Virus record (IMG/VR): IMGVR_UViG_3300025168_000900
Span: 1 to 20,203 of that record
DNA from: a virus
Direction: 5' to 3' (one strand)
DNA length: 20,203 bases
Shown: one piece after another, positions 4,839 through 19,102 of the stretch
Numbering within the stretch: the stretch's first letter is position 1
Layout: each line of letters begins with the position of its first letter
Program-made: the position numbers and the translations under genes
Notes under the pieces: model-generated
Database searches by the model: none
Seen by the model: only the letters and a program-made list of their open reading frames with translations
Told to the model about the DNA's origin: nothing

Positions 4839-5269
4839 AGACCTACTTTAAACTTTTCCCAATCAACAGCTGTTTTTATTTGAAATCCTCTTATGTTCAA
4901 TGACTTTACTATTGATTCTAAGAACTCAACTTTTTCTTTTGCATATGCTGTTTTTAAGTTATGGTTTGTTATATCTTTATCAGATTCAATATACATTGGA
5001 ATATCTGTTTTAAGAATACGTAAAGGGTTTGGATCCCAACCACGATCAACAAGATCCTCTTCTGCCATTACGCCAGAATAATAATCATATTTGTCTTTCT
5101 TGAGGCCTTTATACTCCTCTTGAAGTTTTACTAACTTCATTCTCTCTTCACTAAAATACCTATAGTATTTATGATGGAGCTGGGGTATACGTATAGATTC
5201 TTCACCTAGCTCAGTTCTATCTATTTTAGAATCTGTAGACCAAGCATCATAATAATCATTTAAGTTCAT
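4835..5269 (-). CDS. uvsY: UvsY-like recombination mediator protein
   Basis: UvsY loads the UvsX recombinase onto single-stranded DNA coated with gp32. The 144-residue length is close to T4's 137. Recognisable features are the helical middle with KLVKLQEEYKGLKKDKYDYYSG, matching T4's KARLDYYSG region, and the C-terminal SLNIRGFQIKTAVDWEKF, matching the T4 SRGFAIKHIQDMRAF end. It overlaps the preceding oxygenase gene by 14 bases and the following uvsW by four, so all three are probably translated from one message. Confidence 0.92.
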   Translation of the reverse strand: MNLNDYYDAWSTDSKIDRTELGEESIRIPQLHHKYYRYFSEERMKLVKLQEEYKGLKKDKYDYYSGVMAEEDLVDRGWDPNPLRILKTDIPMYIESDKDITNHNLKTAYAKEKVEFLESIVKSLNIRGFQIKTAVDWEKFKVGL

Positions 5270-6263
5270 CGATTGCTACCACTAACTTCTGACATCTTTC
5301 ATTATACTGCCCATTGAAGTTCTGGTCAACAAGATTTGCTAACTCAATCATCATTAGTCTCTTATCACCACTGTTGATAACATTGACATATCGTGGAGAG
5401 ACTCCACCAGCCATATCACCATATGATTTGATAAGACGTTCTGCTTCTTTACCAACATGCTTCTCAACTATCTTAGGTGTAAACATATTGACATCATGCT
5501 TCTTATACACATCACCGTACACACTATGCCATAACCCAGCCATACACACTGGCTTCTCTGCACCTAACTGTTCTAAGTACACATATACATTCCATAGATG
5601 ATGAAAGAATGGTCTTCCTGTATGTTCAACTTTAGTTGTATTGTCATACAAATACTTTACACCTTTATCTCCATATTCCAATGGAGCGGTGTTGAATACC
5701 ATAATGGTTTTTTCAAAAGGAGTTATTCTTGATAGAGGTGATGTAGAATGTAACTGTGCACTATCAAAGATAAACATTCTATTATACTTTGGTAACATAG
5801 CAACCTCTACATCTTGACTATCGTCATACAACAGAGTCATTCCATAGTACTTAGGATCCCAATCTTTAGTTAGATATAGGATAGCTGTTTCAAATCCAGG
5901 ATGTGATTGAACTACATCTCCATCTCTTGCTTGTTTATCTGTATGTGGATATGCATCTTGTCCAAAGTGATACGTCTTTGTATACGATCTATACAATGAT
6001 CTCTTACCTATTACATCTTGTAAAACATCAAATGCATCCAACATGATAGGATGGTTTTGATCTATCTCTGGTGATGAACACATATCCCACTGGAAGTGTT
6101 TTGGCTGCTTAACAATATTGTGTTGACCATGACCGTATTCAAATGTGTTACGAGCATGAGACTTCCAACCATGTTGGAACCATGTACAATATTTTCTTTT
6201 GATGTCAAGCAATAGGTCTTCGGAGAAGGCGCCTTCGACGCACTTCGGTTCAATATAACTCAT
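5256..6263 (-). CDS. 2OG-Fe(II) oxygenase fused to a C-terminal HD-like (DUF6817-type) domain
   Basis: The N-terminal half (about residues 1-200) looks like a 2-oxoglutarate/Fe(II) dioxygenase. It has an HxD pair at H107 and D109 (YPHTDKQ), a distal H172 (QLHSTSP) and R179 as a candidate 2OG-binding residue. The C-terminal part (about 210-335) resembles an HD-like domain: HTGRPFFHHLW with H221/H222, GLWHSVYGD with H246, GKEAERLI, and a late acidic position in IELANLVDQ (D313). The canonical HD pair reads HS here, so the metal site may be degenerate or of the DUF6817 type. The substrate is unknown; nucleic acid, protein or a small metabolite are all possible. The start has AGGA six bases upstream of the ATG. 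The gene sits between a tail-tube-like protein and uvsY. Oxygenase confidence is high; the HD assignment is from motif recall. Confidence 0.82.
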   Translation of the reverse strand: MSYIEPKCVEGAFSEDLLLDIKRKYCTWFQHGWKSHARNTFEYGHGQHNIVKQPKHFQWDMCSSPEIDQNHPIMLDAFDVLQDVIGKRSLYRSYTKTYHFGQDAYPHTDKQARDGDVVQSHPGFETAILYLTKDWDPKYYGMTLLYDDSQDVEVAMLPKYNRMFIFDSAQLHSTSPLSRITPFEKTIMVFNTAPLEYGDKGVKYLYDNTTKVEHTGRPFFHHLWNVYVYLEQLGAEKPVCMAGLWHSVYGDVYKKHDVNMFTPKIVEKHVGKEAERLIKSYGDMAGGVSPRYVNVINSGDKRLMMIELANLVDQNFNGQYNERCQKLVVAIDELK

Positions 6264-6271
6264 TATAAATC

Positions 6272-6856
6272 CTAAAAATTAGTAGATTGTGTATCCGTAG
6301 TTCCAGCTGAACCCAGTCTTAGAATTCTGAACAGCTTATATCTAAATGTTGCTTGGCACTCTATGTAATCAACAGAAGGTGCCGTGGTTGAAAATTGTAA
6401 GTCAGACAATGCTGTTGGATAGCAGTCTTCAAATTGTACTTCTACGTTAGGCTGCATAGCACTGTTCATAATAGTTAATGTAGCATCACTATACGGCCCT
6501 TCCGACATGAAGTCAACACTTCTTTGCTTTTGATATATGTTCTTAGCTTGAGCAAAGTCTTCTGGAAATCCTAATTGTACCATCCAATCAAACAACTCAA
6601 TATAATTTTTCATATCCTCATCAACTTTGAAAGCAAGTTGAAACTCAGCAAAAGCCATTCTGTCACCAATGGTAGGAATGTTAACAAAAGGGGTTGGCAT
6701 TACTGCATCACCCATTTGTACTGTAGGAACATTCATTGATTGAACAAAATAGTTTGTTGTTGGTAGCTTCTTTATTCCAAAGTTAAAACCCAGTGGTGAT
6801 AGAAACTGAGTATTATCAGGCTGATCGCTTAGTGCTCCACCGAATTGATTAGCCAA
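6272..6856 (-). CDS. virion protein with gp19-like tail-tube fold (second tail-tube paralogue)
   Basis: This 194-residue protein appears distantly paralogous to the tail tube protein gp19 at 13089-13640. Around residues 60-90 it reads IGDRMAFAEFQLAFKVDED followed by LFDWM, where gp19 reads AGDRTFAEWTITVVNDED followed by MEEWM. The C-termini also share a pattern, with DLQFS and a YIECQATFRYKLFR strand against gp19 IDLDWN and EEFSVTFQYDWW. It may be a baseplate-tube adaptor, a tube cap or a minor tube protein; which one cannot be told here. It begins with an uncommon TTG codon, supported by AGGAG at 6863-6867 six bases upstream and by the lack of any other early start. It overlaps the Usg-family gene by 28 bases. 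Confidence 0.78.
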   Translation of the reverse strand: MANQFGGALSDQPDNTQFLSPLGFNFGIKKLPTTNYFVQSMNVPTVQMGDAVMPTPFVNIPTIGDRMAFAEFQLAFKVDEDMKNYIELFDWMVQLGFPEDFAQAKNIYQKQRSVDFMSEGPYSDATLTIMNSAMQPNVEVQFEDCYPTALSDLQFSTTAPSVDYIECQATFRYKLFRILRLGSAGTTDTQSTNF

Positions 6857-7068
6857 TCGACGCTCCTATATTCTCTAGTGTTTGAATCTGCAACCAACAC
6901 TTCATTGATTACAGCATCAATGTTATGATGCCAATAGATCAGAAACTTATGTACTCTAGGATATTCTGGTACAATGTCTTCCGTACCCCAGATAAATTCC
7001 TGAAGAATGTTTCTGTAGTCTGGCATCCAATATCTGACGTTAACTAGTACTTGTTGTCTAACTATCAT
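6829..7068 (-). CDS. usg-like: Usg-family small protein
   Basis: This is a 79-residue protein matching the small Usg family, best known from alphaproteobacterial chromosomes where it lies near trpF/trpB; its molecular function is not established. The diagnostic stretch is residues 15-46: MPDYRNILQEFIW, then a TED/VPEYPR segment, then KFLIYW, ending with an acidic DAVINEVLVA strand. This parallels the family pattern of LPDHP, LLQSFIWQDYD, APDFP and FLDFW as I remember it. The ATG at 7068 has AGAAGAG just upstream, but that site is only a few bases past a TATAAATA late promoter box. The gene therefore sits at the very 5' end of a late transcript or is nearly leaderless. It overlaps the following structural gene by 28 bases. 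A host-derived origin is inferred. Confidence 0.75.
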   Translation of the reverse strand: MIVRQQVLVNVRYWMPDYRNILQEFIWGTEDIVPEYPRVHKFLIYWHHNIDAVINEVLVADSNTREYRSVDWLINSVEH

Positions 7069-7085: not shown

Positions 7086-7114
7086 AAAAAAAGAGGAGGC
7101 ATAAAGCCTCCTCT
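7086..7114 (-). terminator. rho-independent terminator after gp23
   Basis: On the minus strand a perfect 9 bp stem, AGAGGAGGC / GCCTCCTCT, with a five-base loop (TTTAT) is followed by a run of T ending at 7086. It begins 22 bases past the gp23 stop. The plus strand has no T-tract after the stem, so it should act only on minus-strand transcripts. It would end or attenuate the head-gene message after the major capsid gene. Confidence 0.93.
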
Positions 7115-7135: not shown

Positions 7136-8497
7136 TTACATAATGTTGTCTACTAGGATCTTTCTGTAGTACTCATTAGAGTCTGCAGCAAGGGCACCAG
7201 TAGCAGCAAGAGCAGCTGTACCTCGTGCAAAAGGATTCTCGATCACGCCGTAACGAGTCTTGAAGCCGATTTTAGGTTGGAAAGTATCTTCCCCAACCGC
7301 ACGAACCATTTGCAATGGAACATATGGGCAGTAGAATAGACCAGCATCAAATGCACTAGAGCCTTTATAACCGATAGTCATGTAGTTACCAGTTGTATAA
7401 GGATCAATGTATACTCGAATTCGTCCGTTAAGTACACCAGCAAAAGTGTTGCCTGTGTCATCTACTTGCAAATTGTTAGAGTTAAGAGCTGGAGTGTAAT
7501 CAAGTACACCAGCCATTTGTAGTGCGGAAGCAACATCTGAAGAGCAGATCAGCATGTTGCCTTTCCCTCTACGAGTACCCTTCGCAATACTGTTAGCTTC
7601 ACGTTCGATTTGGAACATCAAACCTTTAAACTTTTCAACCATCCAACGACCGTTAGAGTCGGTGTCTAGGTCAAATTTACCTGCTGTTGTTGTGTCATCT
7701 TGTGCACCAACTTTAGCAATAACATTGACTGTTCGAATCATTTCTCGGTTGATTTCAGCCAAGATTTCAGTCGAAAGAATGTTAGCTAATTCAGACTCTG
7801 CGTCCAATCCGTGGATTGCTTTCAAGTCCTGTGCCAATTCCATTGTGTATTCTGCTTTGAGAGCTCTGGACTTTGCAGTCACAGCAATCTTCTCAATGCT
7901 GAATGCCATTTCTGGGAACACGTTGGCAGCACCATCACCCAAGCGCTCTGCTTGAGCTGTGGACATACCAGCAGCATAGTTGTACAATTCAACGTTGGAA
8001 GCGGTACTGTTCAAGTAACCGTTACCTACGAATGTACCTAGGTTTTGTGTAGCACCACCTACGTTAGTGTTTGTGGAGGTATCTTTATCCATTGAGAAGC
8101 CAGTGTTGACTTCGTTATAGAAAGTTTCTCCGCCGGTCTGGTTAGTGTAACGTGATCTCATTGCAAAGATCAAACCAGTAGGACCAGTCATAGGCTGAAC
8201 ACCCATGATGTCATATGCTACCAAGTTTGGCATTGCACGACGAACCAAGCTGATTAGAACTGGGTCGTAAATATCAATGTTACCATCGCCAGCTGTTGAA
8301 GACGAAGCTCCCATAGCGTTTGTTGGAGCTGCTTCGAGCAACGATTGTGGATTGAAAGCTGCTGACTCACGTAGAGCAGTTTCAGTGTTTTCTAGCATTA
8401 CAGCTGTGACGTTCCGCTTATGAACATCCCCAATTTTGTCTAAGTCGGGGTGCTCAATAATAGGCTGCCATTTCTGCAATAATTCTTCGTTTAACAT
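7136..8497 (-). CDS. 23: gp23-like major capsid protein
   Basis: This is the HK97-fold major capsid subunit, 453 residues against 521 in T4. Landmarks are RRAMPNLVAYDIMGVQPMTGPTG near residues 86-108, AKSRALKAEYTMELAQDLKAIHG in the middle, and AGVLNGRIRVYIDPY plus PKIGFKTRYGVIENPF toward the C-terminus. The shortening falls mostly between about residues 120 and 190, where T4 carries its surface insertion domain. The N-terminal propeptide has a good prohead-protease site, LLE|A, at E55/A56, matching T4 cleavage after residue 65. The start has GGAG nine bases upstream of the ATG. No late box lies in the 22-base gap after gp22, so it is probably read from the gp22 promoter. Confidence 0.98.
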   Translation of the reverse strand: MLNEELLQKWQPIIEHPDLDKIGDVHKRNVTAVMLENTETALRESAAFNPQSLLEAAPTNAMGASSSTAGDGNIDIYDPVLISLVRRAMPNLVAYDIMGVQPMTGPTGLIFAMRSRYTNQTGGETFYNEVNTGFSMDKDTSTNTNVGGATQNLGTFVGNGYLNSTASNVELYNYAAGMSTAQAERLGDGAANVFPEMAFSIEKIAVTAKSRALKAEYTMELAQDLKAIHGLDAESELANILSTEILAEINREMIRTVNVIAKVGAQDDTTTAGKFDLDTDSNGRWMVEKFKGLMFQIEREANSIAKGTRRGKGNMLICSSDVASALQMAGVLDYTPALNSNNLQVDDTGNTFAGVLNGRIRVYIDPYTTGNYMTIGYKGSSAFDAGLFYCPYVPLQMVRAVGEDTFQPKIGFKTRYGVIENPFARGTAALAATGALAADSNEYYRKILVDNIM

Positions 8498-15946: not shown

Positions 15947-17599
15947 TCACCACGAACCTTCAATCTCATACGGTGTAGCTGTTATCCAATCGTCTGATTT
16001 ATACTTCTGTAAATCATCTTCTGGATCATTAATTCCATCTTGGAAGAATCCAAATGGTAACATTTCTTCTTCAATAGCCTTTTCATTAGCCAGAAGTAAG
16101 TTCTTCCTTATATCTATATCAGTCATTTCTTTAAAGTATTCTTGACCTGTTAACCAAGCAAACAATACTAATGACATCACTAGATCATCATGATATCCTT
16201 CTTCAGCTGAATAGCTTTGTCCTCTTACAACAAATGCTGTCAACTCTTTAAGGATTTCAAAATCATTTATCTTTAAACGATCATTCTCAATGATAGTTTT
16301 TAAACCTGCACAACCAACTCTCTTCAACTGTTTAGTTGTTCGGACACCTAATTGTTGGGACTTACCTCCAAAGCCAGCTGTCAATAGCTGGCCAGCTCTT
16401 CCTCTCCACTCAGCTGTTAATATACCTTCATACTCTAACTCATGATGTAATATATCAGCAACTTGTTGACCTATGTCATTAATCTCGACAAGTACGATAG
16501 CATCATTATACTTACGTGCAGCGTCATAAATAATAGAAGGATATAACATAGGAGCAATAACATTGGATCTATACGTACAAACGACTTCATAAGGCACAGT
16601 AGTACAATCAACAACAGTAAAAGCAGAATAATCATTTCCTATACCTCTTGAAGTATCAACACTGATTGCGTATACATGACCTCTTATTCTTTCATGCCAT
16701 ATCTTCATGTTCTCATTTTGAGATATTGGTTCATGAAAAGTTAATGCTGCTAGCTTACTAGGATTGATTAGAGTGTTAGATGATCCTATGAAGTCACATT
16801 CAAACTCTTGTCTGAATTGTTCCTCACTAGTGTTCTTTATGGTTTGCTCTTTCCACTCCTCATCTCTACCTGGTACAGCAGACCAATGAACTTTGATAGG
16901 AACGTATTCATTTCTACCTTCTTCTGCATCTACCCATAACTTGTAGAACAAGTTCATACCTTTTGGAGTAGATGTAATCATAACTCTTGATGTCTTACCA
17001 GATGAAATGGTAGGATAAACCGATGCAAAGAACTCCTCTTGTAGTTGAGAATCTACGAATGCAAACTCATCAAGATACACTAACGAGAATGAACCACCTC
17101 GTATAGCAGATGATGATGTTGAACTTGCAAGAACTTTACTACCATTTTCTAACTCAAGACTACCTTTGTTCCATTCAACTAGTCCTTGTTGTAACCAATG
17201 AGGTAACCACTCATATGCCATTTGCAATCTACTCAATATCTCACGAGCAGTACTTGCTTTGTTAGCTAAGATAGCACAATTGAATGATTCGTTGAATAAG
17301 ATAAACCAAAGTATAACAGCAACCATTGTTGTTGTCTTACCAGATTGTCGAGGCATTTTACATATAGAGAAACGATTATGAACAACAGACTTCATTATGT
17401 CTAATTGAAAGTCATACAAATCTAGATTGACAACACCTTCATCAATGTTAACAATCTTCATATATGTTTTACAAAAGTATTCAATATCCTTTGAGCATCT
17501 TACAAGCTCTTGGATTTGCTCTTCTGTATAATCTAGTTTAACTCCAGCTTTTTTTAGTCTGGGATTACCTAGATAGATTTCAGTCGGGGATAACTCCAC
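15947..17599 (-). CDS. 17: gp17-like terminase large subunit (packaging ATPase and headful nuclease)
   Basis: This motor protein translocates DNA into the prohead and cuts it at headful completion. The 550 residues (T4 610) include Walker A MPRQSGKTT at 82-90, Walker B LVYLDEF at 173-179 with catalytic E178, and coupling motif TSTPKG at 209-214. The RNase H-like nuclease domain has acidic residues D315 (SVDTSRG), E372 (VEIND) and D471/D472 (YHDDLVMSL). The start is GTG at 17599. An in-frame TAG lies nine bases upstream and the next Met is residue 47, so GTG is the only sensible start. A GAGGAAAG ribosome site lies in the upstream nuclease gene, which it overlaps by 20 bases. Confidence 0.97.
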   Translation of the reverse strand: MELSPTEIYLGNPRLKKAGVKLDYTEEQIQELVRCSKDIEYFCKTYMKIVNIDEGVVNLDLYDFQLDIMKSVVHNRFSICKMPRQSGKTTTMVAVILWFILFNESFNCAILANKASTAREILSRLQMAYEWLPHWLQQGLVEWNKGSLELENGSKVLASSTSSSAIRGGSFSLVYLDEFAFVDSQLQEEFFASVYPTISSGKTSRVMITSTPKGMNLFYKLWVDAEEGRNEYVPIKVHWSAVPGRDEEWKEQTIKNTSEEQFRQEFECDFIGSSNTLINPSKLAALTFHEPISQNENMKIWHERIRGHVYAISVDTSRGIGNDYSAFTVVDCTTVPYEVVCTYRSNVIAPMLYPSIIYDAARKYNDAIVLVEINDIGQQVADILHHELEYEGILTAEWRGRAGQLLTAGFGGKSQQLGVRTTKQLKRVGCAGLKTIIENDRLKINDFEILKELTAFVVRGQSYSAEEGYHDDLVMSLVLFAWLTGQEYFKEMTDIDIRKNLLLANEKAIEEEMLPFGFFQDGINDPEDDLQKYKSDDWITATPYEIEGSW

Positions 17600-18008
17600 G
17601 TTCAGCTAACTTTCCTCTATTGGCAATATGCTCTTCAGCAATATCATCCTTGGATTGACCATGGTATGCAACACCATAGTTATCATTAATCATTGCTTCA
17701 GCCATTTTCATATAACTATTATTGTGCGAAGCATATATTTCAAAGTCTCCTAATATCCTACCATACTTTCCTTTTTCATCTTGGAAAGAATAGAACTTTC
17801 TAGCTGTTGCCATATATCTTTTTACTTGTTCTGTAGCAAGTTTACCAAACTTCTTCTCTTCAGGATCTGACGTTCTTGATTCTGGTGTATCAATTCCCAT
17901 AATTCTGATACGTTGGTTCTGTAACCAAATTCCAAAGCCTAGATCAATATCGATATCAACGGTATCACCATCAACAATCCTAACTAATTTAAAATTATAT
18001 TCATACAT
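17580..18008 (-). CDS. staphylococcal-nuclease (SNase/TNase) homologue
   Basis: This 142-residue protein is an OB-fold SNase-type nuclease. The sequence IVDGDTVDIDID carries the metal Asp (D15). RIRIMGIDTPES aligns so closely that R35, D40 and E43 match the numbering of the classic Staphylococcus enzyme, and KYGR supplies R84 for the second catalytic Arg. All catalytic positions appear intact. No signal peptide is seen, so it should act in the infected cell. The ATG at 18008 is preferred; the longer frame to 18071 begins with GTG and adds 21 non-family residues. AAGGA lies about 11 bases upstream. It stands between small and large terminase genes, which in T4 are adjacent. A role in packaging or in degrading host DNA is speculation. 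Confidence 0.9.
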   Translation of the reverse strand: MYEYNFKLVRIVDGDTVDIDIDLGFGIWLQNQRIRIMGIDTPESRTSDPEEKKFGKLATEQVKRYMATARKFYSFQDEKGKYGRILGDFEIYASHNNSYMKMAEAMINDNYGVAYHGQSKDDIAEEHIANRGKLAERGVIPD

Positions 18009-18061
18009 CCGTTGACTTGTCCTTCTTTTGGTATATAATAAACTATGTGGCCCGGACAGTA

Positions 18062-19102
18062 CTAAGCCCACTTACTCTCATCACCTTCTATTGCCCAGTC
18101 TCTATATGAATAGAGTTGTCCCTTTAAGTTATTTATAGTCTTTACAGATCGATCATTATTGACAATATCATAGATATCATCCATATAGCAAGAGTTGAAT
18201 GTTCTATATGGACTAGAGAAATAGGTCTCTCCAGTAGCCATATTTAAATAATGATTAGTATCATGCGATAGTACTTCTCTATCAAACCACTTCCATTGTT
18301 CTTGTGAGCTCTTTTGTCTTGGCATCCATCTATCTAGTTCAGGAAAATGATGAAAGAAATACATATTCTTCATTATCTTATCCCATGAATGATTAACAAT
18401 ATCACTTTCATACCACATATCCAATTGTTCTCTAAGAACATCATCATACCATGATGCGTGGATTATAGGATTGTCCTCAAAGAACTCAGTGTTCTCAATA
18501 CCAATAACATGACATCCCAATGATCTAAATCTTCTAAGGCCTTGTTCAAATCCTTGGATAGGTGAATTTTCCATATATCTATTGATAACAGGAGCACCAG
18601 TGCCCCAAACAATAAAGTCATTCTCTGGATCAATTGACTCATGACTAAGTAATGCTGTCTCGGAGGTTGCATAAACGGGACAAGGAAACATATCAATAAA
18701 AGTATTTTGATAGTAATCTGATTTTGCAAACTCTACAACATTAACATTTTGTATTATTTCTGGAACGAAGTTTTGAAATTCTCTTAGGTTTGTAGACTCA
18801 TAATGATTCAATATGTTGTTTCTAAATTGATATACTTGATGTATCTTTATATGTTCTATTTCTAATTTATCAAAAACGTATGCAATGATTGCACTATCGC
18901 AGCCACCACTGACTGGCAATACCAATCTTTTATTTGTTCTTTCTCTGAGTCTTAATGCTGCATCAAAGCAAGCCTCTCTGAATGTCATCTTGGTTTTTTC
19001 AAACCTCTGCATCCAGTGAAAGCCTTTTTCGTTTATTATATAACTCTTACCAGCATAGTCAGGATCACCACTATGGAAGACGTATTCATTTTTTAGGTTC
19101 AT
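18062..19102 (-). CDS. PP-loop ATP-pyrophosphatase, asparagine-synthetase-like (AANH superfamily)
   Basis: This 346-residue protein has a clear PP-loop, VSGGCDSA, at residues 64-71, preceded by a strand (KRLVLP) and followed by a helix. That is the ATP-binding signature of enzymes that adenylate a substrate and release pyrophosphate. A second loop at 165-176 (VWGTGAPVINRY) recalls the GxGGDE..GY region of asparagine synthetase, and the C-terminal SPYRTFNSCYMDDIYDIV with a later Lys (LKGQLYS) recalls its last segment. There is no N-terminal glutaminase domain, so it would need ammonia or another donor, or act on tRNA, a nucleobase or a peptide. It overlaps gp16 by 17 bases and precedes the SNase gene. 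The superfamily is secure; the reaction is not known. Confidence 0.85.
   Translation of the reverse strand: MNLKNEYVFHSGDPDYAGKSYIINEKGFHWMQRFEKTKMTFREACFDAALRLRERTNKRLVLPVSGGCDSAIIAYVFDKLEIEHIKIHQVYQFRNNILNHYESTNLREFQNFVPEIIQNVNVVEFAKSDYYQNTFIDMFPCPVYATSETALLSHESIDPENDFIVWGTGAPVINRYMENSPIQGFEQGLRRFRSLGCHVIGIENTEFFEDNPIIHASWYDDVLREQLDMWYESDIVNHSWDKIMKNMYFFHHFPELDRWMPRQKSSQEQWKWFDREVLSHDTNHYLNMATGETYFSSPYRTFNSCYMDDIYDIVNNDRSVKTINNLKGQLYSYRDWAIEGDESKWA
18130..18137 (-). promoter_or_regulatory. possible internal late promoter box TATAAATA within the PP-loop gene
   Basis: The minus strand reads TATAAATA inside the last 80 bases of the PP-loop coding sequence. Initiation would be near 18124, about 115 bases before the SNase start, and could feed SNase, gp17 and beyond. 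It may also be chance, since the codons encode ordinary residues. Confidence 0.4.

Follow-up and report, generated by a model that had tools for sequence, protein, structure and literature searches.

A phage branch of the Usg family in T4-like phages: close late promoters and a tentative link to the host chaperonin

Why would a T4-like phage carry a gene of the Usg family, for which we found no biochemical function in the literature searched and for which no function is, to our knowledge, known? The question is raised by IMG/VR record IMGVR_UViG_3300025168_000900, of which we analysed positions 1 to 20,203 (the window, 20,203 nucleotides in all). A sequence-only reading of the window had placed a Usg gene at 6829-7068, and translation of the open reading frames shows these coordinates to be exact, with usg read from the minus strand, from an ATG at 7068 to a stop at 6829-6831, as a protein of 79 aa, and with the plus-strand reading of 6829-7068 interrupted by stops. 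The family motifs quoted in that reading are all present in the protein, and the profile search it had proposed as a check gave a significant match to PF06233 (E 7.9e-17, residues 10-63), the score of 61.6 bits, where the curated cut-off is 27 bits, placing the protein in the family. All 73 phage and bacterial proteins in our alignment match PF06233 at E <= 0.01, and Y13, P16, W27, D31, P34 and W46 are invariant across them. A search of PHROGs returned only a weak match to phrog_12283 (E 0.039), which was not reproduced with other Usg members. Pairs of usg genes with 78-92% protein identity have dN/dS values of about 0.11-0.15, and this purifying selection supports usg as a coding gene. The window protein is a true Usg under purifying selection, and it belongs to a phage-specific branch found widely among uncultivated T4-like phages.

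The T4-like assignment of the window agrees with its gene content, which is that of a T4-like late region running gp18, gp19, gp20, gp21, gp22, gp23, usg and a tail-tube-type gene, followed by an oxygenase fusion, uvsY, uvsW, a gp55-type sigma factor and a gp47-type nuclease, some of these names being inferred from synteny with annotated relatives. The upstream neighbour of usg is the gp23 major capsid protein gene (7136-8497, minus strand), behind which a terminator hairpin of 9 pairs followed by a T run (7092-7114, minus strand) likely separates the transcription of usg from that of gp23. On the other side lies the tail-tube-type gene (6272-6856, minus strand; phrog_45, E 5e-34), whose TTG start at 6856-6854 falls inside usg. 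The two genes had been described as fused by overlap; they do overlap, by 28 nt, but are not fused. Judged by its sequence, an AGGAG ribosome-binding-type site for the tail-tube-type gene also lies inside usg (6863-6867, minus strand), and the arrangement of AGGAG and internal TTG is kept in sister phages. Three other minus-strand genes of the window deserve mention. The oxygenase fusion (5256-6263), between the tail-type gene and uvsY, combines 2OG-Fe(II) oxygenase and DUF6817 domains; in the cultured relative Mosig, a 2OG oxygenase gene is located after uvsY. A 346-aa protein (18062-19102) carries an ATP-binding SGGxDS loop of the kind seen in asparagine-synthase or QueC-like enzymes and had no match in a Pfam search. 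A Staphylococcal-nuclease-type protein (17580-18071; PF00565, E 8.5e-10) overlaps the gp17-type terminase gene.

The gene is no peculiarity of the window phage. One large IMG/VR scan confirmed 365 stretches encoding Usg relatives (80 kept) and another 242 (80 kept), two sets that overlap and are not additive, while an alignment-based search of IMG/VR found 52 usg loci; the near relatives comprise eight loci, 78-100% identical and in the same position as in the window. Five different Usg queries found no match among 50,697 deposited phage genomes, and in four cultured relatives with a shared gp23 region usg is missing from the interval that separates gp23 from the next conserved gene. Sorted by position, the 107 distinct phage usg genes comprise 39 between gp23 and the tail-tube gene as in the window (slot A), 26 between an HNH endonuclease or other gene and the large terminase gene (slot B), 21 between a spike/hub gene and a gp25-type wedge gene (slot C), and a further 21 outside these slots. 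A divergent HNH endonuclease gene is upstream of usg in most slot B loci, and in one locus a homing-endonuclease-like gene sits between gp23 and usg. A quick tree of the phage genes shows no fewer than six changes between these three main slots, so usg has moved, and we infer that it acts as a small moved-about cassette (a moron) within the morphogenesis region. In five loci (L036, L038 and L042-L044) it is found among non-structural genes; L042-L044 and L053 have their own late box, and in L043 and L044 usg runs opposite in direction to its neighbours, making these the clearest self-contained cassettes. Six further IMG/VR loci (L057-L062), with host-type Usg, probably stem from bacteria or plasmids, and the phage counts exclude them. 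One of them, L059, is a contig labelled viral that carries groEL, groES, a host-type usg and two Hsp20 genes, and probably represents a heat-shock island of a bacterium or plasmid.

The late promoter claimed for usg is indeed there: a T4-type TATAAATA box (7084-7077, minus strand) follows the gp23 terminator immediately and leaves 8 nt to the ATG. T4 late promoter boxes run from -13 (PMC2988020), and in a T4-type late gene the box would occupy -13 to -6 relative to the transcription start; the spacing between box and ATG is conserved. With the T4 geometry, transcription of the window usg is predicted to start 3 nt before the ATG, giving a 3-nt leader. In sister phages with a 5-nt spacing, because the T4 box starts at -13, the predicted +1 is the A of the ATG itself, with a leader of 0 nt. 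Among the loci collected first, usg has 22 TATAAATA boxes in front of it, of which 19 stand at a distance of 5 nt, two at 8 nt and one at 19 nt, whereas none of the 65 other boxes lies less than 10 nt from the ATG of an ORF, counting ORFs of 50 aa or more. Further loci, with the usg start picked by profile, had NATAAATA 4-8 nt 5' of the ATG in 37 of 73 further distinct usg genes, 24 of them at exactly 5. There, 22 of the 28 TATAAATA boxes assigned to usg are at 4-7 nt, compared with 6 of 149 other boxes, and two of these six are usg itself read from an alternative ATG. This amounts to a partial replication, because the further loci are related to the first set and in some cases share contigs with it.

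Altogether, 57 distinct phage usg genes out of 107 carry a NATAAATA late promoter of the T4 type that stands 4-8 nt before the ATG, for the most part exactly 5, and the close box is found at usg in several unrelated genomic slots. The slot C genes are without it and stand behind same-strand neighbours. Spacing this close to a start codon is rare at the other late promoters of these loci; the close box is enriched at usg but not exclusive to it. L273 and a few other loci have TATAAATA 3-6 nt before the ATG of other genes, e.g., a baseplate-hub-type gene, and predicted leaderless late genes are thus not confined to usg. For roughly one in two phage genes, the promoter anatomy predicts a usg mRNA that is made late and has no leader or almost none. 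We are highly confident of the combination of Usg family membership, late expression and leaderless anatomy, the leaderless start being a predicted one. If confirmed, TATAAATA-N5-ATG would mark a conserved leaderless late gene of T4-like phages and would bear on start-codon calling and on the understanding of late translation.

The gene had been taken to point to an alphaproteobacterial host, and a tree with bacterial Usg proteins had been proposed for finding the donor lineage. We built that tree, and it separates 46 phage-type proteins from 86 host-type proteins across a branch with support of 100/99, the resolution inside the groups being low with 79 residues. Since phage and host Usg split cleanly and the root is unknown, neither donor nor host can be read from it: no donor lineage can be named, and the gene alone is no proof of an alphaproteobacterial host. 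The exchange of usg between cells and phages is either old relative to our samples or hidden in its direction.

The bacterial genes offer a lead on function. Among 144 evenly drawn alphaproteobacterial genomes, 72 encode Usg, in 73 copies, and at least 39 of the 73 lie within 3 kb of groES among the matches listed. Of these, 37 are divergent, and the groES-usg gap measures 188-565 bp in 35 copies; the other 34 copies have no listed groES nearby, a number in which contig ends and unlisted matches hide some. We estimate the chance expectation for groES adjacency at well under 1% for genomes of a few megabases, with the reservation that related genomes are not independent. Among named genomic loci, usg is divergent from groESL in 38 of 80, in Rhizobiaceae, Phyllobacteriaceae, Nitrobacteraceae, Sphingobiaceae, Chelatococcaceae and Rhodospirillaceae as well as in Bosea and Micavibrio-like genomes, and all five plasmid loci opened have groEL divergent from usg. 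CIRCE-like sequences with 0-2 mismatches occur in many groES-usg gaps (in a scan made without a shuffled control), and a simple pattern found no RpoH-like promoter directed towards usg in the gap. The Usg gene of Mesorhizobium loti, msl2390, is among the most heat-induced genes after heat shock (M = 5.54) and stands beside groEL (mlr2394, M 5.79) and the small heat-shock genes mll2386 and mll2387 (PMC3989490). The family had been described as lying near tryptophan genes, which we saw (comparing by eye) for only 1 of the 73 copies, in a Caulobacter-type genome with usg 66 bp before trpF, against the 39 near groES. Bacterial Usg is a neighbour of groESL and not a trp gene, with about half of the copies divergent, on chromosomes and plasmids alike. 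In some public plasmid records alphaproteobacterial Usg bears the name aspartate-semialdehyde dehydrogenase, probably by a mix-up with the unrelated usg of E. coli.

Because bacteria tend to keep usg beside GroES/GroEL, a testable idea of its function can be framed. According to a database record note, folding of T4 gp23 needs GroEL together with the phage protein gp31, which replaces GroES. The heat-shock and chaperonin neighbourhood in cells, the late cassette in phages and gp23 as a GroEL client together lead us to propose that Usg may assist the GroEL/GroES folding system as a small accessory protein. A phage-encoded copy would be supplied late, at the stage where gp23 and further proteins of the virion reach the host chaperonin in large amounts, and this copy would help virion proteins fold or steer the chaperonin towards them. 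A link to gp23 would not be exclusive, because phage usg also precedes terminase or wedge genes or sits among non-structural genes. As a whole, the account of a phage Usg branch carried as a late leaderless cassette and acting as a chaperonin accessory for virion proteins is our best explanation, and we rate it as a serious possibility that falls somewhat short of probable. The chaperonin-linked role as such, which gene context suggests indirectly, we advance more tentatively. Its boldest form, in which Usg is an unrecognised small cofactor of alphaproteobacterial GroEL/GroES and its late leaderless phage version folds the capsid and other virion proteins, parallel but unrelated to T4 gp31, we consider rather unlikely. 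The notion that Usg replaces gp31 or GroES gains no support: a search of usg-carrying records detected neither gp31 (phrog_931) nor Cpn10, but gp31 is missing also from relatives without usg (Mosig, DLP6, phiM12 and Melnitz). The groESL linkage, the one report of strong heat induction and the phage life of usg beside capsid, terminase and baseplate genes provide a first concrete and cheap hypothesis for this family.

Several other explanations were weighed against the chaperonin-linked one. The sequence-only reading had suggested a late or structural role, of which the late part is consistent with the promoter and the structural part is weakened by the occurrence of usg in at least three morphogenesis slots and also elsewhere. 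A role as a late-made minor protein of the virion, or in the assembly of its head or tail, would fit the promoter, the sites beside gp23, terminase and baseplate genes, and the translational overlap with the tail-tube-type gene. Yet the neighbours vary from slot to slot, the same structural genes occur in close T4-like relatives that have no usg, and in bacteria the family consists of cellular genes linked to heat shock and not of phage structural genes, so that we regard this role as unlikely. To about the same degree we doubt that phage Usg is a mimic that replaces or poisons a partner of host Usg and, for example, damps or prolongs the late stress response. A cassette with its own promoter that changes sites, a phage branch strongly diverged from host Usg and the heat-shock neighbourhood of the host gene would suit such a mimic, but phage takeover genes are usually early and usg is late, and the conserved residues are common to phage and host Usg, which favours the same activity for both.

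That usg might be passenger DNA, hitch-hiking with homing endonucleases and of no benefit to the phage, is suggested by the divergent HNH gene upstream in most terminase-slot loci and by the homing-endonuclease-like gene between gp23 and usg in L030. This is quite improbable in view of the low dN/dS, the deeply conserved promoter spacing and the many usg loci without an endonuclease nearby. A role related to tryptophan biosynthesis, drawn from the historical neighbourhood of the family and already disfavoured, could appeal to the trpF-adjoining copy of the Caulobacter-type genome; with that single copy in 73, and with none of the phage loci examined showing a recognisable trp gene, we consider it extremely improbable.

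How, then, does phage Usg compare with known systems? Fair AlphaFold2 models (mean pLDDT 83.7 for phage and 86.4 for Caulobacter Usg) predict for both a core of two strands, a helix and a strand. A fold search of the PDB with the phage and bacterial models gave nothing significant, no GroES-like fold was among the matches listed for either, and the window protein has no Cpn10 match in Pfam. Phage Usg is thus like bacterial Usg (PF06233) in its profile match far above the cut-off, in the invariant Y, P, W, D, P and W columns and in this similar predicted core. It differs in lacking the conserved N-terminal 'GLTTA' stretch, in being mostly shorter (75-84 aa compared with about 89), in forming its own clade, and in having a late promoter instead of a groESL-divergent region. 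With phage morons it shares its own promoter, a sharp presence or absence among relatives and varied insertion sites, being an inserted gene that is missing from relatives at the same place. It departs from typical morons in its late, predicted leaderless promoter, in its presence over a very broad set of phages and, in the window lineage, in overlapping the next gene instead of having its own terminator; our search at the window usg found only the upstream gp23 terminator. T4 gp31, as phage-encoded help for the chaperonin-dependent folding of gp23, is comparable by analogy only, with no sequence similarity found, and the Pfam matches and the fold matches listed gave no resemblance of Usg to a GroES-type co-chaperonin. 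The best structural match in BFVD (E 3.5e-8, 42% identity) is UniProt A0A6J5KMR6, 'Usg-like [uncultured Caudovirales phage]', which shows the phage subfamily to be in databases already as an automatic annotation, although our literature searches found no study of it. Beyond this known 'Usg-like' annotation of phage proteins, what is new here is the close late promoter at phage usg and the groESL neighbourhood of its bacterial counterparts.
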